A stretch of 64,000 bases of DNA, from assembly GCF_000616095.1 (NCBI RefSeq), contig NZ_BAMS01000002.1, positions 610,452 to 674,451 of the forward strand. The letters are read 5' to 3'. Source of the DNA: Sneathiella glossodoripedis JCM 23214 (lineage in GTDB: Bacteria; Pseudomonadota; Alphaproteobacteria; Sneathiellales; Sneathiellaceae). Positions 43,076 to 45,979 of the stretch are shown one piece after another (the stretch's first letter is position 1; the number at the start of each line of letters is the position of its first letter). Below the pieces are notes generated by a model. The model was given only the letters and a program-made list of their open reading frames with translations, made no database searches and had not been told where the DNA came from. The position numbers and the translations under genes are program-made.

Positions 43076-44493
43076 CTATCCCAGAAGATCAAGATTTGGT
43101 CTTATTTGACTTGCTGAACATGCGTTTTCAAATGCAAGTGCTGCAGATAACACTTTCGTATCTTCATGCATGGGCCCAACGATTTGCAAACCAACCGGCA
43201 AGCCATTGCTAGCTACTCCGCAAGGTATGGAGCAGGCTGGCTGCTGTGTCAGATTGAACGGGTAGCTAAAGGGTGTCCAATCGACCCAGTCATCTGCTTC
43301 AGCGGCACCTTTCACTTCAGGCCCAAGACGGCCTGCTTCGAAAGCTGTAACAGCAACAGAAGGGGTTAAAAGCAGATCATAAGTCTGATGGAACTCTCTC
43401 ATAAGCCCCCCAAGTTCTGCGCGGGCAACTGTGGCGTCAAAATAATCAGCCATAGAAATCCTTGATCCACGCTCCACGACTTTGCGAAGCCCCGGATCCA
43501 ATAAGGACAGCGCTTCATCTGACGCATCTTTAAGCGCAAACCAGGCACCACTATGCCAGAGAGTTGCAAAGGTCTGTAGCGGACTTTCAAAACCGGGATC
43601 CACTTCTTCGACCACTGCACCCAACCCCTAAAGACATCGACCGCCTGTTCAACCAGCTTAAGGACCTCACTGTCTACCTTGGCATATCCAAGCGTAGCGC
43701 TATAAGCAATCTTTCTACCTTTTAAATCGGCCGGCGTTATTTCCCGATATTTGTCATCCGTATTAGGCAAGGCGTACCAGTCCCTGCTGTCATAGCCTTT
43801 CATCACATCCATCATCAGGCAGGCGTCGGATACTGTTCTTGTCATTGGCCCCACATGTGAAACGGTCCCAAACGCAGATGCGGGCCAAACGGGCACGCGA
43901 CCGAAACTGGCTTTATAGCCAAATATTCCGGTCAGTGCCGCGGGGATGCGAATGGATCCCCCTCCGTCAGACCCAGTATGGAGCACACCCATACCCGCCG
44001 CACAGGCTGCAGAAGCACCCCCACTTGACCCACCGGGCGTTTTATCCGAATCCCAAGGATTTCGCGTAATGCCGCTTAATGGGCTGTCTGTTACCCCTTT
44101 CCAGCCAAACTCTGGCGTTGTCGTTTTGCCAATGAAAACACACCCATGCTCCCGCAATCTTGCAACAGCCGGGGAATCACTTTCCCATTGCCCCGCAGGG
44201 TCAACCAAGCGGGATCCTTTTAAGGTTGGATAGCCTTTCATGAGCATGATGTCTTTTACTGTTGTTGGAACACCATCCAATAATCCCAAAGGCTCCCCTC
44301 GCCGCCACCTGTCTTCCGACTGTCTGGCAGAAGCCAGTGCGGCGTCAGGATCGGTAAAGACAAATGCATTTAGAATGTGATCGTATTTTTCAATTTGATC
44401 GAGCGCCGCGCGTGTTGCCTCCACCGGCGAGATTTTCCCTTTTTTATACCCCTCAAGAAGATCCACCGCTGAAATGAATGCTAGATCGGTCAT
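43076..44493 (-). CDS. Amidase signature family amidase (frame interrupted)
   Basis: Amide hydrolase with the Ser-cisSer-Lys triad; the substrate cannot be read from sequence. The 5' part (44493 to about 43625) has VPTTVKDIMLMKGYPTLKGS (catalytic Lys), TPGGSSGGASAACAAG and GSDGGGSIRIPAALTG. At 43623-43624 one T is missing from GGTTTGG; the correct frame reads DVFRGLGAVVEEVDPGF and ends at 43076. Joined length is 472 aa. The start at 44493 has AAGGGGG upstream. It may belong to aspartyl/glutamyl-tRNA amidotransferase-like or 6-aminohexanoate-hydrolase-like subgroups; gatA is less likely without gatB/C nearby. Confidence 0.82.
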
Positions 44494-44626
44494 AATTCCC
44501 CCTTGTTTTTGTTGTTGAGAAAACTCTAGCCCCCTGATACCCATGTTTCAAGAAATGCCTTTATTCTGCCATCAGTAATTACCATGTTGCAGAGTTATCT
44601 GTGGAACAGTCGGAACGAAATTTTTC

Positions 44627-44962: not shown

Positions 44963-44964
44963 GA

Positions 44965-45014
44965 TGGGGCGAATGACCGGGATCGAACCGGCGACCTCCT
45001 GAGTCACAGTCAGA
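44965..45014 (-). other. attachment site: 3' half of a tRNA-His gene
   Basis: From the anticodon arm to CCA a tRNA is intact: loop CTGTGAC (GTG anticodon at 45007-45005), 3' anticodon strand TCAGG, variable loop AGGTC, T arm GCCGGTTCGATCCCGGT, acceptor strand CATTCGC, discriminator C and CCA. Discriminator C with a GTG anticodon points to tRNA-His. The 5' half (acceptor strand GCGAATG, D arm) is absent and phage-like sequence takes its place. The intact tRNA should lie beyond the right edge, at the other end of the element. Confidence 0.8.
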
Positions 45015-45342: not shown

Positions 45343-45390
45343 AAAACCCCTCGGTTTGCACATCGTTTGAGAGGTGTGAGGGGTGTTGTT
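45341..45390 (-). ncRNA. Candidate hairpin RNA of about 50 nt with its own promoter
   Basis: A perfect minus-strand promoter (-35 TTGTTA 45425-45420, 17-nt spacer, -10 TATAAT 45402-45397) would start RNA near 45390. Only 50 nt later ACCCCTC (45384-45378) pairs with GAGGGGT (45352-45346) and is followed by six T, an intrinsic terminator. An inner CACA/TGTG pair extends the stem. No ORF fits. The transcript would be essentially one hairpin, ending at the stop codon of the convergent zinc-ribbon gene. It could instead be read only as a terminator. Confidence 0.55.
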
Positions 45391-45396
45391 AATCGC

Positions 45397-45444
45397 ATTA
45401 TACCCCAATAAAGGCTTGTTAACAATACATTATTTTTATATAAT
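45397..45444. promoter_or_regulatory. Divergent promoters sharing the palindrome TTGTTAACAA
   Basis: Rightward: TTGTTA 45416-45421, 17-nt spacer, TATAAT 45439-45444. Leftward: TTGTTA 45425-45420, 17-nt spacer, TATAAT 45402-45397. The two -35 hexamers overlap in the 10-bp palindrome at 45416-45425, so only one polymerase can bind at a time. Both hexamer pairs and both spacers are identical. Confidence 0.75.
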
Positions 45445-45450
45445 GGAGGG

Positions 45451-45660
45451 GTAAGGTAGCAAGCGCTTGGGATGAAGGCATCCGACTGTAGGTATTCGAA
45501 GTCCTACCGCCTCGCAAGGGTTAGAAAGAGTATCGACACTCCAAGGCAGCCGGGGTAGCGTCCGGCCCTTACATTTAGGGGTGTGAGCCGAAATCACGGT
45601 TGGTACCGTGCCGCACTTTGCTGTCGGATGTCTTTTAGACTAGGCTCACGCTTCCCTTAA
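45451..45660 (+). ncRNA. Structured RNA with pseudoknot, candidate riboswitch-like leader
   Basis: Starts at the predicted rightward start site. Outer stem: TAAGG 45452-45456 with CCTTA 45655-45659, and AAGCG 45461-45465 with CGCTT 45649-45653. P1: 12 bp, 45475-45486 with 45623-45634. Inside P1 are hairpins GTAGG/CCTAC (45488-45507), GAGT/ACTC (45528-45541), AAGG-GCCGG/CCGGC-CCTT (45543-45570) and CACGGT/ACCGTG (45595-45610). GTGAGCC 45583-45589 pairs with GGCTCAC 45643-45649, crossing P1 as a pseudoknot. CCTTAA 45655-45660 can alternatively pair with TTAAGG 45669-45674, hiding the ribosome binding site of the next gene. No known RNA family was recognised. Confidence 0.7.
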
Positions 45661-45682
45661 TTACTTTCTTAAGGAAACAGAT

Positions 45683-45979
45683 ATGAGACCTAGAGGCGAT
45701 GAATTGATTGAAGGTTGGGGCGGTATTGATGGTGGTAGTAGTTTCATCACCCCACACTCAAGCACATGAAAGATTGGTGAGCCTGAGCGTCAACCAAACG
45801 GAAGCATCTTCCAGTTAATCGAGACCTCAGACGGGTCTATGGTTTTAGGTGTGAGGATTATTTCTGGGGATGGCGGGTATGACCTTATGATCAACCGAAG
45901 CATCACGGAAAATGATATTATGTGGGCTGAAAAGATTTACCGAGAGGCTAACACAGGACAACGAGCGGCAAGTAAATGA
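45683..45979 (+). CDS. Phage small protein with an in-frame TGA at codon 29
   Basis: ATG at 45683 with AAGGA 7 nt upstream. The frame is open for 98 codons except one TGA at 45767-45769, inside PHSST-stop-KIGEPERQPNG. It ends with TGA overlapping the next ATG (ATGA), so coupling to the downstream gene only makes sense if the whole frame is used. TGG (Trp) would restore it by one base. Whether this is a true nonsense mutation, readthrough or a sequence error is open. The downstream part (SIFQLIETSDGSMVLGVRI) has no recognised family. It is led by the structured RNA. Confidence 0.55.

Follow-up and report, generated by a model that had tools for sequence, protein, structure and literature searches.

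A structured RNA at the edge of a Sneathiella prophage is related to an unlisted family of phage RNAs that may act as transcript leaders

The nut and qut antitermination sites of phage lambda require the phage proteins N or Q, and GOLLD, ROOL and the T4 RNAs C and D are structured phage RNAs, some of which lie beside tRNA genes. In phage HK022, the put RNA binds the zinc domain of the beta-prime subunit of RNA polymerase and suppresses termination. The put sites (putL and putR) are cis-acting RNAs of about 70 nt that fold into two stem-loops, lie near the early promoters in two copies per phage, and need no phage protein (PMC9378689). Here, we compare these systems with an RNA encoded in a 64,000-nt stretch of the Sneathiella glossodoripedis genome (the window) and with the family of phage RNAs to which we found it to be related.

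The RNA lies in a prophage of about 39 kb and thus shares the phage or prophage location of the family. The prophage is bounded by a 50-bp tRNA-His attachment repeat, of which one copy is at window positions 44964-45013 and the second, beside the intact tRNA-His, at 694354-694403 of the contig (C11). To the left of the prophage, an amidase-like gene (43076-44544, minus strand) is represented by two overlapping open reading frames in different frames and is apparently frameshifted. A consensus scan identified a sigma-70-type promoter, TTGTTA-17-TATAAT, at 45416-45444 on the plus strand with a predicted start near 45451. A sequence-only reading of the window had placed a perfect promoter at the 5' edge of the RNA; the start at about 45451 stands, whereas the promoter carries 10 of the 12 consensus letters and hence is not perfect. 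The same reading had described a structured RNA with its own promoter and of no known family, and our search of Rfam 15 bore this out, returning no matching family for the window copy.

A sensitive blastn search produced one 23-nt identity, between window positions 45546-45568 and Ochrobactrum phage POI1126, and the core 20-mer of this match, GCCGGGGTAGCGTCCGGCCC, is present in 51 IMG/VR contigs. Reading outward from the 20-mer in the contigs that carry it, we obtained a canonical scaffold in which the 5' strand of a closing helix (P1) is followed by a hairpin, HP-A (GCGtgGAAAGCAGAcaCGC), a hypervariable arm of 44-198 nt, a second hairpin, HP-B, and directly the 3' strand of P1. HP-A has the consensus C-G-GCGTG-GAAAGCAGA-CACGC; HP-B is a 5-bp stem around NGTAGCGN, with an A before it and the P1 strand at once after it. 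A second scan that used the HP-A pattern alone returned at least 120 stretches, nearly all with HP-B and P1 made of other stem sequences, and about 140 members were parsed.

The helices covary strongly. Among 62 trimmed members, 98.8% of cells pair, and the covariation score is 0.674, whereas shuffles give 0.135 and slid partners no more than 0.10. Both partners vary in 15 of the 18 scaffold pairs; the remaining three pairs are invariant. For P1, the strands were fixed by HP-A and HP-B alone, that is, without selecting for pairing. Across 139 loci, 810 of the 834 cells in its pairs 1-6 are Watson-Crick, 13 are G-U and two are A-C; that G-U outnumbers A-C speaks for RNA rather than DNA as the molecule that pairs. 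Together, these data make it virtually certain that the phage RNA family is real. The arms, by contrast with this scaffold, are hypervariable: 117 of 140 lack a similar partner, and seven of 140 contain a perfect tRNA T-arm, where 0.08 would be expected. These T-arm hairpins lie inside the variable arms of L264, L265, L144, L048, L110, L146 and L154, and the arm of L144 was called as a degenerate tRNA-Ser. We considered an attachment site (the 3' ends of tRNAs) within the variable arm of such members and rejected it, since two Thalassospira contigs keep the RNA whole.

In the window, the signature hairpin HP-B is formed at 45549-45566 as GCCGG-GGTAGCGT-CCGGC. It belongs to the exact 20-mer, has the 5-bp stem, the family loop and the preceding A, and scores 21.9 bits against the family model (E 6e-5 over 501 bases searched). 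P1 is formed by GTAAGG (45451-45456) and CCTTAC (45567-45572), the latter directly 3' of HP-B as in the family. All six of its pairs form (the family's usual length is 7-12), and it sits exactly where promoter spacing and HP-B predict it, with six exact pairs arising about once in 4,000. The -10 hexamer begins 12 nt upstream of P1, an offset found in 7% of members against a background of about 1%. The arm between the two strands (45457-45548) is 92 nt long, which is normal for the family, and is predicted to form the hairpins GGATG/CATCC and GTAGG/CCTAC. The sequence-only reading had instead paired the 5' end with CCTTA at 45655-45659. We revise this assignment, as GTAAGG more likely pairs with CCTTAC, like P1 in about 140 relatives; indeed, the first 120 nt of the RNA, folded unconstrained, yield P1 and HP-B.

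Against kinship stands the absence of HP-A, the best-conserved hairpin of the family. Directly after P1, where its GAAAGCAGA loop would be expected, the window has TAGCAAGCGCTTGG, and the model aligns no HP-A; the window RNA is therefore a diverged relative and not a full member. In favor are the model match of HP-B, the six of six P1 pairs, the promoter spacing, and a canonical copy with all three helices in the same prophage, 34.5 kb away (contig 690438-690550; L172 1414-1526), after the SSB gene in a recombination operon. In addition, a search of 24 further genomes of the genus found the loop dodecamer, though never with the HP-B stem. We conclude that the structured RNA of the window is real and kin to the unlisted family, and that the stretch 45451-45572 probably derived from it. 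The 3' extension (45573-45682) is unique to the window RNA, with no homologue in the relatives or class genomes searched. Homologues of the whole RNA were found neither in 41 relatives, 289 genomes of the class and phages, nor in viral contigs searched for HP-B plus CCTTA.

No Rfam 15 family matches the members at gathering score, and two members searched at permissive E-values gave no credible Rfam 15 match. The matched stretches of POI1126, Persinger, PotUPM1, D14H and Synechococcus phages carry no RNA annotation, and those of the Orimi01/Orisa phages are annotated as 'hypothetical protein'. We found no description of the family in the literature searched; large catalogues of candidate viral RNAs lay outside that search, and a prior listing is possible. 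Most of the named hosts in which a member is convincing belong to the Proteobacteria (Pseudomonas, Brucella, Thalassospira, Comamonas, Pusillimonas, Methylovulum, Albimonas and others), and cyanophages and a small number of metagenome bins have the family as well. The RNA is present in isolated phages of Pseudomonas, Ochrobactrum and Synechococcus, and its function is therefore testable. At the sensitivity used, none of 5,426 E. coli genomes contains the family, and it is rare in genomes of the class; the 61-column model used for whole-genome searches is insensitive because of the long arm. About 55 of 80 pattern matches in genome contigs, including most of those from other phyla, lacked HP-B and P1 and were discarded as chance, and matches in plasmids were chance hits in coding sequence only. 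An RNA that covaries almost perfectly across considerably more than a hundred unrelated phages, yet carries no annotation in the phage records examined and has no Rfam 15 entry, points to an annotation blind spot.

The genomic placement of the members offers insight into what the RNA may do. In 82 of 109 members, the nearest gene downstream shares the strand of the RNA, and in the other 27 it does not; members stand before early, terminase, tRNA or moron genes. Behind the RNA come unrelated genes (Erf, exonuclease, RusA, BstA, helicase, integrase, terminase, sometimes a tRNA). A leader so indifferent to its genes would more plausibly affect transcription or the stability of the message than switch a single pathway in response to a ligand. 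In Orimi01, copy 1 opens the early leftward operon, and copy 2 has NinG on one side and, on the other, a strong terminator ahead of the terminase genes. D14H has the RNA at the head of an exonuclease/RecT operon, with a terminator behind it. These placements match the layout of HK022 put (PMC9378689). Against a put-like role, terminators show only a weak enrichment downstream of members (within 500 nt, 14 on the RNA's strand versus four on the opposite one), and the copy in phage Persinger leads no operon. The first 150 nt show no excess of terminators, and on this ground we rejected a standalone small RNA with its own terminator as the general form. We likewise rejected tRNA adjacency as the main association, as it is modest (11% versus 5%). 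Two copies per phage, the arrangement of the present prophage, are also seen in Orimi01 and a small number of viral contigs, L095 and L109 among them.

Like put, then, the family is placed in early operons and before a terminator ahead of late genes. It differs from put in its build, a closing helix around two conserved hairpins and a hypervariable arm (100-250 nt), which is not the two-stem-loop form; within the HK022 early region, we detected no shared motif or sequence match with the family. Members resemble lambda nut and qut in standing at the head of early and late operons, and one of them (L037) has a Q-like gene beside it, so a protein partner is possible. The window copy, a 5' leader with two predicted, nearly equal folds around a ribosome binding site, would in this resemble a translational riboswitch, whereas the family shows no ligand-binding core conserved in front of a single type of gene: its members precede unrelated genes, not a common gene family behind a conserved aptamer. 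GOLLD, ROOL and T4 RNAs C and D differ from the family in size and sequence, and no Rfam model matches it.

Our best single guess for the family, a tentative one drawn from these placements, is a leader that acts on transcription. The RNA would form the beginning or an internal part of phage transcripts and would most likely act in cis on the very polymerase that transcribed it, so that pausing or termination would be suppressed for whatever genes follow, as with HK022 put RNA. In this prophage, the canonical copy sits in the early operon and the window copy would head a short transcript beside the attachment site; that this transcript would serve small genes only is a point against the reading. 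The window's private 3' extension could also hide or expose a ribosome binding site by refolding. We infer the cis action on transcription, the antitermination and any effect on translation. As a whole, the explanation that fits best, to which we assign a probability of about 0.38, is that the window RNA is a diverged relative, the family a cis-acting transcript leader and the extension a possible switch. If the put-like action is true, protein-free antitermination is far commoner than the few HK022-like phages suggest.

The same scaffold could instead display its hypervariable arm in trans, binding a host or rival factor as a decoy, in some members by tRNA mimicry. The 117 arms without a similar partner and the seven with a perfect T-arm agree with such a role, as do members beside phage tRNAs on the same strand and the copy in phage Persinger, which lies after the integrase gene, faces opposite genes and therefore leads no operon there. 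We nevertheless consider it unlikely: a T-arm is missing from 95% of arms, and members mostly sit in runs of genes on one strand and as a rule lack a terminator of their own. If the variable arm were the active part, the family would amount to a modular RNA display in phage-host conflict. The terminase large subunit is among the nearest genes above the one-per-genome expectation, and the RNA is flanked by terminase and the next large gene in Synechococcus phage Ssp-JY40; both observations would suit a packaging RNA akin in role to phi29 pRNA. That role is very unlikely given the many members in recombination operons or by integrase genes, the two copies in some phages, and the position of the window RNA away from structural genes. 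For the window copy alone, the missing HP-A, a P1 of only 6 bp and the broken downstream gene could mark a chance or decayed RNA, a functionless relic; this is improbable, as its consensus promoter is intact, HP-B and P1 are exact, and a long-range helix is significant. A more speculative picture, and a doubtful one, joins several of these elements: a large unlisted class of phage RNAs with a strict three-helix scaffold and an interchangeable hypervariable head, sometimes a T-arm mimic, serving as an anti-host device or a polymerase-modifying leader, of which the window copy gained a ribosome-site switch.

That switch was first proposed in the sequence-only reading, in which the folded domain frees the ribosome binding site and the unfolded one hides it. 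The pairings TAAGG/CCTTA, AAGCG/CGCTT, GTGAGCC/GGCTCAC and CCTTAA/TTAAGG on which it drew are exact, as a letter-by-letter check confirmed; those of 5 to 7 bp are each expected by chance within 230 nt. Only the 12-bp helix between 45475-45486 and 45623-45634 is clearly above chance: it is present with one G-U pair, and the inner arm scores 11.6 against the 3' flank, compared with a shuffled mean of 7.4 and a score reached by none of 300 shuffles. The strands of the proposed 7-bp pseudoknot (45583-45589 with 45643-45649) are indeed complementary, while in an alternative fold they form part of a nested 12-bp helix (45578-45589 with 45643-45654, three G-U pairs) that closes a hairpin at 45595-45610. 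This extension helix is predicted to be either an alternative to the long-range helix or pseudoknotted with it. The whole stretch folds with an energy z of -2.4 relative to shuffles; its reverse strand has a z of -2.8 and thus also folds better than shuffles, so that energy alone is no proof of an RNA.

In such a switch, a closed fold would free TTAAGG and an open fold would hide it with CCTTAA in a hairpin (45655-45674) that would cover the ribosome binding site, under control of a ligand, a protein or folding kinetics. Two computed folds place the site in opposite states within 1 kcal/mol. At -81.5 kcal/mol, CCTTA pairs with the 5' end, leaving the site free of it; at -80.5 kcal/mol, P1, HP-B, the nested 12-bp helix and the CCTTAA/TTAAGG hairpin form together. 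The short transcript, which is predicted to fold first into P1 and HP-B, and the long-range helix beyond chance likewise fit a switch. As the account of this RNA it is nonetheless unlikely. Two near-equal folds are common in RNAs of 230 nt, the case rests on a single sequence whose switching part has no homologue, and pairing of the variable arm with downstream sequence was rejected as a family trait (mean z 0.07 over 118 relatives). Neither the 3' extension nor the downstream gene has a homologue that we found, so that comparison lends the switch no support. With the helices revised as above, the folding models leave it physically possible and unproven.

The gene it would control has 28 codons unless a TGA is read through. 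The open frame at 45683-45979 (plus strand) spans 98 codons, is interrupted by the in-frame TGA at 45767-45769, and overlaps the next open reading frame at its end (ATGA). The TGA may be a nonsense change, an error or a site of read-through; a search with the interrupted frame found no homologues, and three weak matches to the next one were discarded because they lie across another reading frame.

On the opposite strand upstream, an abiF RNA (RF03085) is present at 45346-45383, with 38.2 bits against a gathering score of 37, its own consensus promoter (TTGTTA at 45425-45420, TATAAT at 45402-45397) and a T run after the RNA. It is the sole copy in the genome, in which no Abi_2 (PF07751) protein was found, and it has the appearance of an orphan RNA of the type III antitoxin kind that may serve the phage as a decoy against AbiF; an RNA antitoxin related to abiF RNA has been described (PMC12373285). 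The palindrome TTGTTAACAA at 45416-45425 provides the -35 boxes of the two divergent promoters, of the abiF RNA and the window RNA, and is possibly their shared operator. Just past the predicted start of the window RNA, a 10-nt palindrome, CAAGCGCTTG, occupies the place of HP-A (45460-45469) and could be an operator or a dimer contact.
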